Origin: Brenneria sp. hezel4-2-4
GTDB taxonomy: Bacteria; Pseudomonadota; Gammaproteobacteria; Enterobacterales; Enterobacteriaceae
NCBI RefSeq assembly: GCF_013155275.1
Contig: NZ_JABJXS010000007.1
Span: forward strand, 124,001 to 188,000
DNA: 64,000 nucleotides
Direction: 5' to 3'
The position numbers and the translations under genes are program-made. The stretch's first letter is position 1. The number at the start of each line of letters is the position of its first letter. Of this stretch, positions 37,671-45,200 are shown piece by piece. The notes beneath the pieces are model-generated. The model ran no database searches. It was not told where the DNA came from and worked only from the letters and a program-made list of their open reading frames with translations.

Positions 37671-38930
37671 TTATTTGTCGATTTCTATCTCTCCCGTGGA
37701 TAGGCCCGCCACCTCAACACCCGGCGGCACGGCAAGCCCCGGCGTCACATCGATTCGCCGTGGCGCGCTGGCGGCGTCGGGACGGAAAATCACATAGCTG
37801 TTGCCCGCATCGTCGGTGCGCAGCGCTTCGGCGGGAACGGCAATCCCTTGTTCATTGCGGTACGTCACCACCGAAAGTCGGGCGCTCATCCCCAGCCGAA
37901 GACGCTGGCGCTTTTCGGGGGATGGCGTGTCGATGGCGACCAGCACGTCATAGCGAGCGCCTGCGCTCTCGGATTCGGCGGCTCGGCCCTCGATACCGAT
38001 AGTCTGGATACGGCCTTGCAGCGTCCGCCCGGCGAAGCCGTCGCCGTCGATCTCCACTGGCATCCCCTCGCGTAGCTGGTGCAGATCGGCCTCTTCAATG
38101 CTGGCGACGGCTTGCAGACGCTCGGGGTTAATCAGGCCGAACAGCGGCATACCCTGTGCGATATGCATCCCCGGTTGCGGCGGTTGCCACTTGCTGGTTT
38201 CCGTTACGGGGGGTCGTACCAGCACACCGGCGAACGGCGCGCGCACTACCTGCTGCGCTTGCATAGCCAGCAGCGCCTGATGACGCGATTTAGCATTCGC
38301 CAGTTCCATTTCAGCAATCTGACGATCTTCGCCGCGCCCCTTGTTCAGCGTGGCCTGCAACTCTTCTTGCGCGGCGGCCAGATCTTGCCGCTGAGCCTGC
38401 ACCTGCTGTTTCAGCGCATCCACTTCCATGCGGGCTACAATACCGCGCTCAAACAGTGTACGGGTGTCTTTCAGGCTGGTCTCGGTGTTCGCCAGCGTGA
38501 TACGGGCGTTGTTCAGGGTGCGGCGCGCCCGCGCCACTTCCTGACTTTGTTCCCAATGTTGCAGTTCCTGCTCCATGCGCTGCGCCTTGAGCAGTTCGGC
38601 CAGCGCCTGACGCAGTTGGATATCCAGCAGACCTGTATCCAGCGTCAGCAGCGGTTGCCCTTTTTCTACACGCTGCCCTTCGGCGACCAACACGCTTTTA
38701 ATCGTGCCTTCAAACGGCGCGGAGAACGTCAGATGGGTGGCCGCTTGAATCCGACCGATCAGTCCCAGCCGGTTCTCCAGCACCTGTGGTTCGATGCGCA
38801 GCCATTGCATTTGCGGTGCGTCGGCGACTGGCTCCGACCAGAACCGCCAAATGCCGGTTACGGCAATCGGGATGATCAGGATTGTCAGCGCGGCTAAGCG
38901 GCGCGACCAGAAGCGTACGATTTTAATCAT
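37671..38930 (-). CDS. HlyD/MacA-type periplasmic membrane fusion protein
   Basis: Adaptor that links an inner-membrane ABC transporter to an outer-membrane channel. The product is 419 residues with one N-terminal membrane anchor (about residues 12-30), a biotinyl-lipoyl half (FEGTIKSVLVAEGQRVEKGQ), a long Gln/Glu/Ala-rich coiled-coil hairpin (about 95-215), the second lipoyl half (VVRAPFAGVLVRPPV), and beta-barrel and membrane-proximal domains. It is the last gene of the seven-gene minus-strand operon; its start overlaps the preceding outer-membrane gene by 8 nt. Substrate unknown. Confidence 0.88.
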   Translation of the reverse strand: MIKIVRFWSRRLAALTILIIPIAVTGIWRFWSEPVADAPQMQWLRIEPQVLENRLGLIGRIQAATHLTFSAPFEGTIKSVLVAEGQRVEKGQPLLTLDTGLLDIQLRQALAELLKAQRMEQELQHWEQSQEVARARRTLNNARITLANTETSLKDTRTLFERGIVARMEVDALKQQVQAQRQDLAAAQEELQATLNKGRGEDRQIAEMELANAKSRHQALLAMQAQQVVRAPFAGVLVRPPVTETSKWQPPQPGMHIAQGMPLFGLINPERLQAVASIEEADLHQLREGMPVEIDGDGFAGRTLQGRIQTIGIEGRAAESESAGARYDVLVAIDTPSPEKRQRLRLGMSARLSVVTYRNEQGIAVPAEALRTDDAGNSYVIFRPDAASAPRRIDVTPGLAVPPGVEVAGLSTGEIEIDK

Positions 38931-40386
38931 TGAGTGAGATATCCCAGCTTAACAGCGTTGTTCCCAGCGTCTGATCCAGTTCGGCCTGGGCGTTGAGATA
39001 GGCGATCAGCGCGTCGAGCCGGGCATTTTCAGCGTTGCGCAGGTCGGCCTCATAGCTCAACACCTGAAAGTTGCTGGAGCGCCCGACGGTGAGCTTATCC
39101 CGTTCGATATCCAGCTTGCGGCGCGACAGATCGCGGGCGCGTTGGGCGATTTCGAACTGGCGCCAGCGTACGCCGATACCGCGCACGGCATTGGTGACGT
39201 CGCGTTCCAACTGCTGGCGGGCCTCGGCGAGCTGTACACGCTGATTCTGCACGCTCACCCGCGCCTGCACTTCCGCCTGCCGCTGGCTCATGTCGCCGAT
39301 GGGAATTTCCACCTGCACGCCGACATAGTTTTCCCAACTGCGTGAGCCGTCCGCCGCGGCGTTGCGGTTTCGTTGCTGACTCGCCCCGCCCACCAGGGAC
39401 ACATCCCACAACCGTTCGTTACGCGCCACCGCCAGATTGATATCCGCCTGTTCGCCGGCGATCAACTGCGTGAGGTAGGTGGGCTGCATGGCTTCGGCCT
39501 GTTTCAGCGCCTCGGCGGGGCTGACGCTGACTCGGCTGACCTGTAGCTTTTCGGCGGCGCGGATCGGCGTGCGTAAATCCAGCGCCAGCAGTTGCAGCAG
39601 TTCCAGGCGGCTGCTGTCGAGCTGGTTGTGCGCGTCTTCGTAAGACAGTTCCTGCGTCGCCACGTCCGCTTCGGTCTGCACAATGTCAAACTCCGCCATT
39701 CGCCCGGCAGCGATCAGCGAACGGTTTACGGCCAGCAACTGACGCGAGCGCGTCAGCGCATCGTTGGCAATTTGCAACTGCTCTTGCGCGCGCAGCAGTT
39801 CCCGGTAGGCGACAATAATCTGCGTAATGGTCTGGGCGACGGTGGCTTTCAGCATCAGGCTGTTGGCTTGTTCGGTCAGCCGGGCCAGCCGCACCGGCGC
39901 GGTGGCGGCTTCACGGCCCGCGCCGCGCAGCAGCGGCTGAATAACGGTGATGCTGGCCCCGTCGTTGCGGTCGTTTCCGGCATCGTCGGCCTGCGTGGTT
40001 CGATGCGTCCAGGCCAGGCTGAACTGGGTACCGTAGGGCGTCAGCAGCGTGGTGGTGGGGGCAATGTCGCGCTGGCGGTAGCGGTCGTCATGATTTCGCG
40101 CCGCCAGATAACTGCCGCTTAGCACCAGTTTGGGCGTGAATCGGTCTTCGGCCACCAGCAGATCGAATTTCTGCGCTACGCGATCCAGATAGGCGCTGCG
40201 GATAACGCGGTTGTCGCGCAGGCTGAGGTAGATAGCGTCGCTCAACGTCAGATCAATGATTTGCGCATTGAGCCGCGCAGCGCTGGCTCCCGGACGGGGG
40301 GGGTGGGACGGCAACAGACGATCGGTCAGCGCGGCCGAAGCATTCAGGCTGATAAGCAATAGGACGGAAGTAAAGGCTCTAATCAT
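38923..40386 (-). CDS. TolC-family outer membrane efflux protein
   Basis: Outer-membrane exit duct of a type I or MacAB-like exporter, 487 residues. A signal peptide of about 18 residues (RAFTSVLLLISLNASA) precedes two tandem OEP repeats rich in long alpha helices (for example LLRAQEQLQIANDALTRSRQ and EARQQLERDVTNAV). It overlaps both neighbours by 8 nt, so it is translated as part of the exporter cassette. A dedicated outer-membrane partner suggests this exporter does not rely on housekeeping TolC. Confidence 0.88.
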   Translation of the reverse strand: MIRAFTSVLLLISLNASAALTDRLLPSHPPRPGASAARLNAQIIDLTLSDAIYLSLRDNRVIRSAYLDRVAQKFDLLVAEDRFTPKLVLSGSYLAARNHDDRYRQRDIAPTTTLLTPYGTQFSLAWTHRTTQADDAGNDRNDGASITVIQPLLRGAGREAATAPVRLARLTEQANSLMLKATVAQTITQIIVAYRELLRAQEQLQIANDALTRSRQLLAVNRSLIAAGRMAEFDIVQTEADVATQELSYEDAHNQLDSSRLELLQLLALDLRTPIRAAEKLQVSRVSVSPAEALKQAEAMQPTYLTQLIAGEQADINLAVARNERLWDVSLVGGASQQRNRNAAADGSRSWENYVGVQVEIPIGDMSQRQAEVQARVSVQNQRVQLAEARQQLERDVTNAVRGIGVRWRQFEIAQRARDLSRRKLDIERDKLTVGRSSNFQVLSYEADLRNAENARLDALIAYLNAQAELDQTLGTTLLSWDISLND

Positions 40387-41570
40387 CGCGCAGCGCCCTT
40401 ACCGGTTCGAGCCGGGCCGCCGTCAGGGCCGGATACAGGCCGAAGAACAATCCGACCAGCAGCGAACTGATGATCCCCAGCGGCAACGACAGCGGCGACA
40501 GGGAAAAGGCCCAGCCGGACAGTTTTACGAACAGCCAGGCGGCGGCCAGACCGAAAACAGACCCGGCCAACGCCCCGGCCACTGCCAGCACGACCGCTTC
40601 CAGTAGAAATTGGCGGCCAATATCCTGTGGGCGTGCCCCCAACGCCATGCGCACGCCGATTTCACGCCGCCGTTCGGACACATTCATCACCATGACGTTC
40701 ATCACGCCCACGCCGCCCACCAGTAGCGCGATCCCGCCCAGCCCAGCCAGCAGCCAGGTGAAGGTGCGCGACTGGCGCGCCATCCCCTCCAACAGTTGCT
40801 GCGGGATCTGAACCGTTACCTCGCGGCCTGGAGCAAGCGATGAGAGGTAGTTGCGCAGCGCGGCGGCCTGCTGCGGCAGCGTGGCGCCATCGCGGGCTCG
40901 CGCCACTACGGTACCAATTTCCGGGGAGGGAACCAGACGACGGATTCCCTCGACGGGCAGCAGAATAGCCTCGTCCACTGGCACCGGGATCAGGGGATTT
41001 TGCCCTCGTTCCTGCAAAACACCCACCACCTCGAACAGATAGCCGCCGATCTGTATCCGGCTGCGGAGTGACGCGCCCAGTTCAATGGCGGCTTTCGCGC
41101 CCAGCACCGCATAGGTGCTCTGGCGATCGTAACGGGTGAGGAAACGGCCTTGCGTCATGCGTAGCTCCATCGCCAGAGCCAGCTCGGCGCTGGTGCCGAC
41201 CACAATAGTACTGAAATTTCGACCGTTCAGGCGGGCGTCGGTTGAGGTCAGGATAAGCGGAGCAGCGTAGTGGATACCGGGTAAGGCGCGGGTCAGTGCC
41301 AATGTATCCAGTGTGACGGGCGCGCGGCGCTGACCGCCCGATTCTGCTGCGGAAAAGCTTGCAACCAGCATATCGCTGCCCATGTCTTTAAATGTACTGA
41401 TGGCGTCTGCCGCCGCATTGTGACCGATGTTCAGCAGTGCGACCATCGACGCGCAGCCGACAGCGATACCCAGCAGGGCCAGTAGCGCCCGACGTCCCAA
41501 CTGTCGCAGGCTATCCAGCGGTTCGGTCAGGGTGTGGCGCAGCGAAGGGCCGTAGGGGCAATGGGAAGTA

Positions 41571-41578
<8 letters not shown>
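40379..41578 (-). CDS. MacB-type ABC transporter permease (FtsX domain)
   Basis: Inner-membrane subunit of a mechanotransmission-type ABC exporter, 399 residues. One N-terminal membrane segment (about residues 33-52) is followed by a periplasmic MacB_PCD-like domain (about 55-270) and three C-terminal membrane segments forming the FtsX domain. Typical landmarks are MNVSERRREIGVRMALGA and the final PALTAARLEPVRALR. Unlike canonical MacB, the ATPase is a separate gene. The frame is open from 41602, but ATG 41578 has AGGAAG upstream and overlaps the ATPase stop by 8 nt. Confidence 0.9.
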
Positions 41579-42266
<688 letters not shown>

Positions 42267-42299
42267 TCCCCCAGCATTGCGGGCAGGGACGATAACGGA

Positions 42300-43103
42300 T
42301 TATTTTTTATTGTCATTGGCAAGCAGGGTGAAAAGGCTCATCGGAACGAGATGGGAATTTTTCTCCTGTAGCTCGTTTTTCCAGTTATTCAGCGTACTAA
42401 ACAGGGAGGTGCTATTTGTTGTAAGCGATGAAGAATCTGACGCAATTACCGACTGCAATCGTGCTTCATAACCTGTCGGATATTGTGCCTGTTCTATTGC
42501 AGGTAGCGACTGATAATGTTCTAGAATATCAGAGAGTGATTTGGTGATTTTCCCAGTTCGGTTATATTCCGCTTCCATTTTTGCCACGATTTTCTCACGC
42601 CATGCTTGTTCCTGATCATATGATTCCGACCAGGCCGCCCGACGTTCATTGACGGTGAAGGCACCACTGTCATCATAGGTGATCAGGGCGAGTTGTTCCC
42701 GCGACATTCCTTTGAAGGGATTGCTTGCTTTACCGTTTAAATAATCAGTGGCCTGTTTTGCCCTAGCCAGCAAATCTGGGTCAGTTGTATCGGGAATTTC
42801 GGCGTCATAAATTTTTTTATACGAATCGGTATAATAATTCGCGTCGGTGATCTCTTTAAGAATTGACTCGGCTTTGGTCTTGAGTTCGCTGCGGCTAAGA
42901 CTGGCGTCGCGTTTTTCTGCTCGAGTAGCTGCATCACTTAATTGCTGGGCGAAAGACGACACCTTAGTGGATGTTGTATTGGTGGATTTATTTTGTTCAC
43001 TCTGTACGGAATCGCTGCTCACTTGATTTTTAATTGCTGAACTCGATGTATTACTTATTTCGTTAGTTAACGTGGTTATTGAAAATTTATTGATGCTGAC
43101 CAT
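42300..43103 (-). CDS. Unrecognised 267-residue protein of the exporter operon
   Basis: No function recognised. The N-terminal 55 residues are Ser/Thr/Asn-rich and low-complexity, with no signal peptide. The centre is charged and probably helical (AQQLSDAATRAEKRDASLSR), and a conserved-looking block follows (SREQLALITYDDSGAFTVNE, then RRAAWSESYDQEQAW and LPAIEQAQYPTGYEARL). There are no cysteines. I have an impression of similar proteins in Pseudomonas, unverified. ATG 43103 is chosen because GGAG lies 6 nt upstream; ATG 43115 is also in frame. It lies directly upstream of the ABC ATPase, so it may be an exported substrate or an accessory factor. Confidence 0.75.
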   Translation of the reverse strand: MVSINKFSITTLTNEISNTSSSAIKNQVSSDSVQSEQNKSTNTTSTKVSSFAQQLSDAATRAEKRDASLSRSELKTKAESILKEITDANYYTDSYKKIYDAEIPDTTDPDLLARAKQATDYLNGKASNPFKGMSREQLALITYDDSGAFTVNERRAAWSESYDQEQAWREKIVAKMEAEYNRTGKITKSLSDILEHYQSLPAIEQAQYPTGYEARLQSVIASDSSSLTTNSTSLFSTLNNWKNELQEKNSHLVPMSLFTLLANDNKK

Positions 43104-43186
43104 AAACTTCTCCATTCGTTATAGTGTCGCCTGATTGAATTGAAAATAAATTAAATCGACACCACAATACATTTTAATAACAGTAC

Positions 43187-43212
43187 CCATCGCCACCTGT
43201 TGGTGACAATGG
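43187..43212 (-). terminator. Hairpin between the two unknown genes of the exporter operon
   Basis: CCATCGCCACC pairs with GGTGACAATGG (two mismatches) around TGTT, just after the stop of the 153-residue secreted protein. There is no clean T run, so it could be an mRNA-stabilising or attenuating element. Confidence 0.45.
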
Positions 43213-43232
43213 GGCTATCCATTTCTGGATAA

Positions 43233-43694
43233 TTACTTCATGGTAAATTCAACCGCCCATGCGCCAGTTATACTGGTTGACGTGATGGTGGCTTTACAAG
43301 TAGCCCCACCGCTTGCTGTCGCCGTTTTGTTCCATTTTGGTACTTTGGGAATTGTGCCGCTAAACAATCCCCCCGGAATAACTTCATTTACAAACGTCGT
43401 ACCAAAAACGCAGGTTTTTTTGCCAATGGTGTAGCGAACTACTGCGGCATTTGCGTCAGACGTAATGAGGTTTTGCACAATATATTTATCGGTTCCTTTT
43501 GCTACAACAGAAGTTTCCGGCGCAGGTTTCGCTAGTACGCTTGTGCTAACTTCGTTAGTTGTCACTGGGGAATATTTTGCCGGTGCGGTTCCGAGGTTTT
43601 TAAATGTAATAGTTACCGGCCCAGCATAAGCCGCGCCAGCAGTAAACAATGACGCAACTGTAATCGTAGCCAGAATACTTTTTTTAATTCGCAT
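43233..43694 (-). CDS. Unrecognised secreted 153-residue protein with two cysteines
   Basis: A clear Sec signal peptide, MRIKKSILATITVASLFTAG followed by AAYA, predicts a mature protein of about 129 residues in the periplasm or outside the cell. The mature part is Thr/Val/Ala-rich with alternating hydrophobics (PVTITFKNLGT, VVRYTIGKKTCVFGTTFVN), suggesting a beta-sandwich. Two cysteines (KKTCVF and GATCKAT) could form a disulfide. ATG 43694 has GGAGAT upstream; longer in-frame starts to 43763 lack a signal sequence. It sits in the operon with a tripartite exporter. Function unknown. Confidence 0.8.
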   Translation of the reverse strand: MRIKKSILATITVASLFTAGAAYAGPVTITFKNLGTAPAKYSPVTTNEVSTSVLAKPAPETSVVAKGTDKYIVQNLITSDANAAVVRYTIGKKTCVFGTTFVNEVIPGGLFSGTIPKVPKWNKTATASGGATCKATITSTSITGAWAVEFTMK

Positions 43695-43794
43695 ATCACA
43701 TATCTCCATATATTGATTTTTCACACATTTAATAACAAACACATCTTGCCCGATATGCGGCACGGCTTCTTTACTATGCCGCCATCCATCCCTG

Positions 43795-44139
43795 CTACTG
43801 TTTATTCAGCCGTTCCAATAGATTCGTTATCCTCTGCTGTTGAACTTGATCGTACAGCTCGGACGGCATCTCGCGGTCATCGTTGGTGAGTAAGTTGACT
43901 GAGGACATGGCTATCGTAGTTTCCGTCAACTGCGTTATAACTGGAGGGTTAGCATTTGCATCACGAAACAGGCGGGACATCATAAGTTCCTCGCCACTAA
44001 GGCTAAACAGCCCGGAAGTTGACAACGATTTGTCTGACAAGCCATTCGCCAGTGAAGCCTGTGATTGCACCGTCTTTGAAGTGTTGCTTGGCGTATTTTG
44101 CACCTGAATATAGGCCGTCGTGGCTGTGTTGATTTCCAT
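43795..44139 (-). CDS. Unrecognised 114-residue first gene of the exporter operon
   Basis: No family recognised. Polar and Ser/Thr/Gln/Asn-rich, with no cysteine, no signal peptide and no membrane segment. The N-terminus (MEINTATTAYIQVQNTPSNT) resembles in style the low-complexity start of the 267-residue product. The C-terminal third is helical and charged (DQVQQQRITNLLERLNKQ). AAGGATTGGGAT precedes the start. It lies about 100 bp upstream of the secreted-protein gene on the same strand. It could be a secreted substrate or regulator; nothing visible decides. Confidence 0.65.
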   Translation of the reverse strand: MEINTATTAYIQVQNTPSNTSKTVQSQASLANGLSDKSLSTSGLFSLSGEELMMSRLFRDANANPPVITQLTETTIAMSSVNLLTNDDREMPSELYDQVQQQRITNLLERLNKQ

Positions 44140-44771: not shown

Positions 44772-44852
44772 GGCCTTTGGCCTCGCCCCTTCGGGGTCAA
44801 CGCTGACGCGTTGTTGTCTCGCTTCGCTCGGCTCGAACCTGAACGCAGGTTC
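44772..44852. repeat. Hairpin-dense segment downstream of the tRNA operon
   Basis: Short perfect stems follow each other: GGCC-TTT-GGCC (44772-44782), CCCC-TTC-GGGG (44786-44796) and GAACCTG-AACG-CAGGTTC (44835-44852). The segment is non-coding and lies just past the tRNA-Lys gene in the direction of tRNA transcription. It may act in termination or 3' processing of the tRNA precursor. Confidence 0.5.
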
Positions 44853-44921
44853 TCACCCGCACGACTCGTGCAATATAAAGATAAGTGGATTGACTTCGGA
44901 GAGGTAAAACTTTGCGGATAT

Positions 44922-44997
44922 TGGTGGGTCGTGCAGGATTCGAACCTGCGACCAATTGATTAAAAGTCAACTGCTCTACCAACTGAGCTAACGACCC
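44922..44997 (-). tRNA. tRNA-Lys (TTT)
   Basis: Minus-strand 76-nt cloverleaf starting GGGTCGTTAGCTCAGTTGG, with anticodon loop ACTTTTAA (anticodon TTT), the T-loop GGTTCGAATCC and encoded CCA (44922-44924). It is the last gene of the four-tRNA operon, matching lysV in the E. coli valU-valX-valY-lysV cluster next to gltX. Confidence 0.97.
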
Positions 44998-45004
44998 GCA
45001 GAAG

Positions 45005-45080
45005 TGGTGGGTGATGACGGGATCGAACCGCCGACCCCCTCCTTGTAAGGGAGGTGCTCTCCCAGCTGAGCTAATCACCC
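45005..45080 (-). tRNA. tRNA-Val (TAC), copy 1
   Basis: Minus-strand tRNA starting GGGTGATTAGCTCAGCTGGG with anticodon loop CTTACAA (anticodon TAC), T-loop GGTTCGATCCC and encoded CCA. Only 7 bp from tRNA-Lys. Identical to the other two copies. Confidence 0.97.
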
Positions 45081-45124
45081 ACTTATGTACTTCACTTGCT
45101 ATAAGAAGATCGCTGGTATGAGAT

Positions 45125-45200
45125 TGGTGGGTGATGACGGGATCGAACCGCCGACCCCCTCCTTGTAAGGGAGGTGCTCTCCCAGCTGAGCTAATCACCC
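45125..45200 (-). tRNA. tRNA-Val (TAC), copy 2
   Basis: Identical in sequence to the copies at 45005 and 45244, separated from them by spacers of about 44 bp. Encoded CCA at 45125-45127. Confidence 0.97.

Follow-up and report, generated by a model that had tools for sequence, protein, structure and literature searches.

A conserved operon of small proteins and a MacB-type exporter in Brenneria sp. hezel4-2-4

The operon and its genes

We analysed a stretch of 64,000 nucleotides (below, the window) from the 4.54-Mb genome of Brenneria sp. hezel4-2-4 (contig NZ_JABJXS010000007.1, positions 124,001 to 188,000), where seven consecutive genes on the minus strand, all intact open reading frames (ORFs), occupy positions 37671..44139. 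An earlier sequence-only reading had described three proteins of no known family followed by a four-gene exporter resembling MacAB-TolC, and had proposed that all three are substrates or dedicated partners of the exporter in a secretion or antagonism system. The layout was borne out, and none of the three proteins reached a curated Pfam or NCBIfam cut-off. In the order of transcription, these are U114 (43795..44139), by hidden Markov model match and alignment a truncated copy (114 of approximately 315 residues) of a partner family, U114L; U153 (43233..43694), a small leader-bearing protein and the likely cargo; and U267 (42300..43103), a leaderless, Cys-free protein which the pairing and Cys counts given below mark as the probable cognate partner of U153. 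U114 and U153 are 100 nt apart, and U153 and U267 129 nt.

The exporter comprises an ATP-binding cassette (ABC) ATPase subunit with a nucleotide-binding domain (NBD) of the MacB/LolD type (41571..42263; PF00005, E = 5.4e-36; Walker A and LSGGQ readable), a MacB/FtsX-type permease with a periplasmic domain (40379..41578; PF12704, E = 4.2e-28; PF02687, E = 2.4e-21), a TolC-type outer-membrane factor (OMF; 38923..40386; PF02321, E = 4.8e-40), and a periplasmic adaptor, or membrane fusion protein (37671..38930; PF13437, E = 4.9e-19; TIGR01730, E = 2.2e-34). The respective domains (ABC_tran; MacB_PCD and FtsX; OEP; HlyD/biotin-lipoyl) all score above the Pfam cut-offs. Adjacent exporter genes overlap by 8 nt each (permease/ATPase, 41571-41578; OMF/permease, 40379-40386; adaptor/OMF, 38923-38930), the first value holding if the permease starts from the ATG at 41578; the longest possible permease ORF starts at 41602. 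Similarly, the reported distance of 33 nt between the end of U267 and the ATPase holds for the TTG start of the latter, and is 36 nt for the ATG. By its composition (permease, ABC ATPase, HlyD-type adaptor and TolC-type OMF) the exporter can be classed as a putative MacB-type tripartite system in which, unlike in fused MacB, the NBD and the transmembrane domain are on separate chains (231.7 and 140.4 bits to the fused-MacB model NF007826, the cut-off being 966). Among the listed exporter matches only the adaptor passes an NCBIfam cut-off, that for efflux adaptors of the resistance-nodulation-division (RND) type (TIGR01730, 118.9 vs 94.9 bits). At E <= 0.001, the window OMF matches nothing but itself in the source genome.

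The N-terminus of U153 is a Sec-type leader as judged by eye; a crude Sec-signal script, which scored the window U153 ORF together with its upstream extension as False, was abandoned, and all leaders were assigned by eye. Two Cys residues and an A-G-P motif are invariant in all 16 aligned U153 sequences, the cleavage site also being judged by eye. AlphaFold2 predicts a beta-sandwich of the actinoporin/aegerolysin (cytolysin-lectin) type. No Pfam family matched the window U153 at E <= 1, and the 13 families listed at E <= 10 for the 16 members do not include aegerolysin or actinoporin. The search of solved-structure sequences with the U153 profile yielded a weak match to a honey truffle protein (chain 9p6w, E = 0.0048), and profile comparison with FlhE gave no signal (probability 0.1%). 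U153 is a family below the Pfam cut-offs, now with a predicted toxin- or lectin-type fold.

A hairpin of 12 pairs with a 4-nt loop (43186..43213, minus strand) lies between U153 and U267. It comes from a listing of terminator-like sites, which are not enriched across the region (6 found vs 7.8 expected). When the 80 nt following each gene were folded and compared with dinucleotide shuffles, z < -2 was observed in 19 of 29 loci after U153 vs 6 of 59 after U267. The element is a probable attenuator or 3' stabiliser and suggests that more U153 than U267 is made.

Recurrence of the pair and the exporter in other genomes

The sequence-only reading had put forward co-occurrence of the three genes with the exporter in unrelated genera as its check. 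For U153 and U267 this is what we observed: both are neighbours of a related exporter in Burkholderia, Pseudomonas, Stutzerimonas, Thauera and three more genomes of the window's family, so that the arrangement, as far as can be judged from sequences, is not due to chance, and such pairs recur across several unrelated genera. U114 stands apart as a truncated U114L copy. The scan of genome contigs with U267 yielded 37 loci in Pseudomonas, Stutzerimonas, Azotobacter, Burkholderia, Thauera, Zoogloea, Gallionella and others; by profile, U153 adjoins U267 at many of these loci, and at several the pair is accompanied by the exporter genes. Nothing matched in E. coli genomes at megablast sensitivity, and the PHROGs matches were to families of unknown function only, the best one being for W156, the second small-protein family described below (E = 9.6e-4).

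A class-wide draw of 369 genomes, searched once with U153 and once with U267, returned only the source genome, and hence the census was moved to Pseudomonas (n = 199 genomes) and the window's own family, Enterobacteriaceae (n = 119). For each Pseudomonas genome we scored at most 19 candidates for U153 and W156, 12 for U267 and 7 for the OMF. The rows used were 99 of 113 for U267 (7 broken or already counted pieces and 7 weak ones, at E from 1.2e-6 to 3.7e-4, were omitted), 40 of 41 for U153 (the second piece of one gene was omitted) and, for adjacency, 60 of 61 for the OMF (a 141-residue fragment in genome G548 was omitted). U153 was found in at least 36 Pseudomonas genomes, a U267-profile match in at least 56, and a close OMF (E <= 1e-30) in at least 60.

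At 39 of the 40 Pseudomonas U153 places, U267 is situated within 2 kb on the same strand; in the exceptional genome, G620, U153 directly precedes the exporter, and no U267 match is present among the best 12 candidates. If all score classes are taken together, 53 of 99 U267 places lack U153, but many of these are distant subfamilies, and we therefore relied on the class with at least 180 bits. Among the candidates listed, the places in this class (n = 53) had U153 nearby in 43 cases, W156 in none and neither in 10; at 100-180 bits (n = 20) W156 was found at 10 places, U153 at 2 and neither at 8, and below 100 bits (n = 26), at 4, 1 and 21 places, respectively. Thus, partners are chosen specifically, and U153 is rarely found apart from U267. 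A U267-profile place is near 14 of the 19 W156 places, again among the candidates listed. In the window's family, U153 occupies five places in four genomes, all adjoining U267, and U267 with at least 180 bits occurs at 10 places, five of them without U153.

Separation of the genes from the exporter had been named in advance as an observation that would speak against a common system, and it is seen in part: among the genomes reached via U267 loci (n = 33), a close OMF (E <= 1e-30) is present in 17, and any match (E <= 0.001) in 26. Judging by these counts, the U153-U267 pair looks like the core, and the exporter seems to be optional.

In the concatenated permease-OMF tree of 25 exporters, the window exporter falls into a clade of 18 (support 0.99), of which 17 adjoin U153, W156, an FlhE-like protein or another leader-bearing protein. 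Many of the 18 were selected for holding U153 or U267: L210-L212 were taken by OMF similarity, L002-L004 by DNA similarity to the operon, L193 as the exception with U153, and the rest, apart from the window, via U267 or U153. One clade member (L003) is cut by the record start and has U114L at the opposite end of a circular plasmid. Loci L005, L008, L011, L020, L028, L033 and L209 were left out as broken, cut, or failing the length or distance filter. The sequence-only reading had also considered that the exporter might group with a characterised drug pump lacking such neighbours; in this tree, which compared these exporters alone, with no characterised drug or MacB-type pumps among them, it lies outside a sister clade of six Pseudomonas exporters (L199-L204, support 1.0), where the profiles found no U153, U267 or W156. 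A TetR-like neighbour was recognised by eye in 4 of the 5 sister-clade loci read (the genes of L202 were not listed). In L199, a 256-residue leader-like protein is encoded beside the adaptor gene. When Pseudomonas OMF homologues are ranked by score, a leader-like small protein adjoins the exporter in all of the first six, there is none at the seventh, a member of the sister clade, and at the eighth U153 is present.

Partner proteins and the second small family

U114 covers only positions 1-103 of the 320-position U114L family. Its final residues are weakly similar to the C-terminal end of two fused relatives of full length (shuffle p = 0.013 and 0.040) and unlike that of two others (p = 0.445 and 0.136). 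U114 would be a vestige of a second partner, whose W156-type small protein is absent here. Full-length U114L is present on plasmids of Citrobacter, Rahnella and Pantoea; in the single Pantoea region read (L047), neither the exporter nor W156 is beside it. The two partner families also occur as fusions, namely U267-U114L (551-555 residues), U267 with approximately 2.5 U114L units (805-826 residues), and U267-U267-U114L (791 residues), the latter on the IncP plasmid pALTS33 (L044:6410-8785), where it adjoins a U267-U153 couple. Fusions thus hold several partner domains, and some of them adjoin both small proteins (L008; L012, with U153 in pieces). On the pairing counts, U267 itself can be taken as a pair-specific partner without a leader. 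Weak matches in the search of solved-structure sequences linked U267 with FlgM (E = 0.35) and U114L with pantothenate synthetase (E = 0.36). A distant U267-like protein (334 residues) directly follows an unclassified leader-like small protein at L197:5950-7511, and a motif resembling V-x-L-S-x-x-A was noticed by eye in several partner proteins.

The other small family, W156, likewise begins with what looks like a leader. It is next to a U114L-containing gene in 9 of 9 copies, these loci having been fetched via U267, U114L or the exporter and hence not being independent. By hhalign, W156 matches FlhE (PF06366) with a probability of 80.7% (at most 1.2 in 30 column shuffles) and two FlhE-like proteins beside such exporters with 91.7% (at most 3.5 in 30); the FlhE comparison set consisted of 10 sequences chosen by a C-terminal motif, with one locus dropped. 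Thus W156 is a remote relative of FlhE, whereas U153 is not related to it by profile, and kinship with FlhE extends to small proteins adjoining related exporters at L033 and L210. In Salmonella, FlhE is reported to be a chaperone preventing periplasmic flagella, and an alternative function has been proposed for relatives where flagellar genes are missing (passages of PMC11247099). The listed W156 loci were not recognised as flagellar and offer a setting for FlhE relatives outside the flagellar context.

Two exporters close to that of the window, L209 and L210, are within Pseudomonas flagellar gene clusters, the genes being recognised by eye. The L210 exporter, with its FlhE-like small protein, is between cheR-like and flgB-like genes; L209, which is outside the tree, has another small protein; no partner was recognised at either. 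In a metagenome-assembled genome of Gallionellaceae (L033:7275-18442), four couples of a small and a leaderless protein, recognised partly by profile and partly by eye, surround one MacB-type exporter, one of the small proteins being the FlhE-like one.

Proposed function and alternatives

We consider it about evenly probable that the operon serves for dedicated secretion in two steps. U153 would be made in excess, cross the inner membrane by Sec, fold with one disulfide, presumably formed by Dsb, into a small actinoporin/aegerolysin-like (cytolysin-lectin) beta-sandwich that may bind membranes or glycans, and be pumped out of the periplasm by the products of the downstream genes, the MacB-type ATPase-permease, adaptor and TolC-like duct. 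U267 would be the dedicated partner of U153, probably at a lower level, and U114 the remnant of another one. U153 is regarded as the cargo by analogy with STII and dispersin/CexE, and because no other neighbour is as constant, it carries a leader and two conserved Cys residues, and it seems to be made in excess. The idea of three equivalent substrates has to be modified to one likely cargo, one partner and one vestige, while a role in secretion or antagonism fits the predicted fold of U153.

Pumps of the MacB type reportedly expel proteins from the periplasm, among them the Sec-delivered, Dsb-oxidised STII, with dispersin and CexE also named as protein cargo (passages of PMC5985334). The Aat system exports dispersin/CexE; there the cargo gene may stand apart from the exporter genes, and AatD can be distant (in part of PMC7943197). 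Both systems, like the one described here, combine a MacB-type permease with an ATPase, adaptor and OMF, and both have a small Sec-delivered cargo, as U153 would be. The window operon differs in its cargo family and in the added family of leaderless partners. The Aat system has the acyltransferase AatD, whereas no acyltransferase domain was seen in the seven genes, the rest of the genome not having been searched; mature Aat cargo begins with Gly, to be compared with the A-G-P of U153. The predicted fold is similar to that of aegerolysins and actinoporins (Cry34Ab1, RahU, ostreolysin A, AfIP-1A), but U153 differs from them by its leader and its conserved pair of Cys residues, and has no Pfam sequence match to them. 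Several aegerolysins act together with a partner protein, which in A. faecalis is encoded by the neighbouring gene (passages of PMC9505663).

Several observations weigh against the secretion unit. The U153 fold is one AlphaFold2 model built from 16 sequences, with pLDDT (predicted local distance difference test) below 50 at residues 1-20, and no sequence profile ties U153 to aegerolysins or actinoporins. In 19 of the 36 U153-bearing Pseudomonas genomes there is no OMF at E <= 1e-30 among the best 7 candidates, hence U153 does not seem to need the pump; co-occurrence of U153 and the OMF by genome is weak (17/36, Fisher p = 0.013). The hairpin is less regular after W156 (z < -2 in 3 of 9). Finally, Cys is absent from 51 of 65 U267 and 13 of 17 U114L domain copies (0.13 and 0.15 Cys per 100 residues, compared with 1.18 in the ATPase and 0.38 in the permease as controls), and both families are rich in Ser/Thr (17.5% vs 11.9% in the ATPase). 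As such composition is typical of exported proteins, U267 and U114L could themselves be cargo.

The role of U267 may be considered in two ways. If the locus is a toxin-immunity cassette, U153 (elsewhere W156) would be an exported antibacterial toxin, U267 and U114L the immunity proteins, and the U267-U114L fusions poly-immunity proteins. We hold this to be a tentative possibility, clearly short of an even chance. Dependence is nested in the expected manner, as only 1 of 40 U153 places lacks U267, while U267 with at least 180 bits lacks U153 at 10 of 53 places in Pseudomonas and 5 of 10 in the window's family; pairing is specific, U153 going with U267 above 180 bits and W156 with the 100-180-bit class, and some multi-domain fusions stand beside both small proteins. 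Compared with the window, B. roseae lacks the DNA from approximately codon 11 of U114 to approximately codon 14 of U267, including U153, and from within the ATPase gene, present as a fragment only, to past the adaptor gene, and yet its U267 (L007:10001-11101) is open and in frame with a U114-derived start. Orphan U267 is under purifying selection: dN/dS was 0.15-0.28 in five orphan-orphan comparisons and 0.07-0.18 in four paired ones (two comparisons were saturated, and those with L020, 0.13 and 0.15, were left out, U153 being 1.3 kb downstream there). On the other hand, the partners have no export signal, although a membrane-active toxin is expected to act from outside; so little Cys would not be expected of immunity proteins residing in the cytoplasm; in G620, U153 and the pump are present, and no match to U267 was found among the candidates scored; 5 of 19 W156 places lack a nearby U267-profile place (U114L itself was not searched there); and PADLOC gave no match. 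Alternatively, U153 could be the membrane- or glycan-binding half of a two-component effector, with U267 as the other half and both exported, as in Cry34/Cry35, AfIP-1A/1B or ostreolysin/PlyB. This would agree with the predicted fold, the precedent of aegerolysin partners, the Cys depletion and Ser/Thr-rich N-termini of U267/U114L, and the correlation of U153 and U267 distances (mirror-tree r = 0.874 for 56 pairs, permutation maximum 0.363, species kinship not being corrected for). However, it is unlikely, since U267 is leaderless and MacB-type pumps are thought not to carry cargo over the inner membrane (in part of PMC5985334), neither the window U267 nor one fused relative has a Pfam match to MACPF or Toxin_10, and some genomes hold U267 without U153. 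Immunity explains orphan retention, specificity and fusions of U267, but not the absence of a leader or the Cys depletion; co-export explains its composition and agrees with binary aegerolysins, but not the orphan retention. We lean slightly towards a protective, immunity-like role over that of a co-exported second component.

If, vice versa, U153 and W156 were FlhE-like periplasmic helpers (chaperones or regulators) and the leaderless partner the true exported product, one could cite the remote kinship of W156 with the chaperone FlhE and the exporters within flagellar clusters; this is rather improbable, as U153 has no FlhE signal and a predicted toxin/lectin fold, the hairpin suggests a level of U153 above that of U267, and in L193, L209 and L210 the exporter and small protein occur without a recognised partner. 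That the exporter is an ordinary small-molecule efflux pump with unrelated neighbours we regard as very improbable: the sister clade with TetR-like neighbours, the U153 genomes without a close OMF and the RND adaptor match would fit, but the adjacency is repeated in Burkholderia, Pseudomonas, Thauera, Stutzerimonas and the window's family, and the exporter clade is separate in the tree.

The locus is real and conserved, and it would add to MacB-type protein export a variant that we did not find described: searches of an open-licence library listed no paper on the U153, U267, U114L or W156 families together with such an exporter. Somewhat less probable than the secretion unit itself is a widespread class of such paired modules across the gamma- and betaproteobacteria, with small exported proteins, leaderless, Cys-poor and fusible partners, and one MacB-type exporter clade forming a modular toxin-partner system. 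If so, U153 (aegerolysin/actinoporin-like) and W156 (FlhE-like) would each have their own partner family, the multi-domain partners would act as poly-immunity proteins or multi-component effectors, and a broad clade with swappable cargo families would be added to the known MacB-type protein cargo. The pairing of the partner families defined here makes their function directly testable. Upstream of the operon, tRNA-Val/Lys repeats at window positions 44797-45198 give spurious long ORFs.

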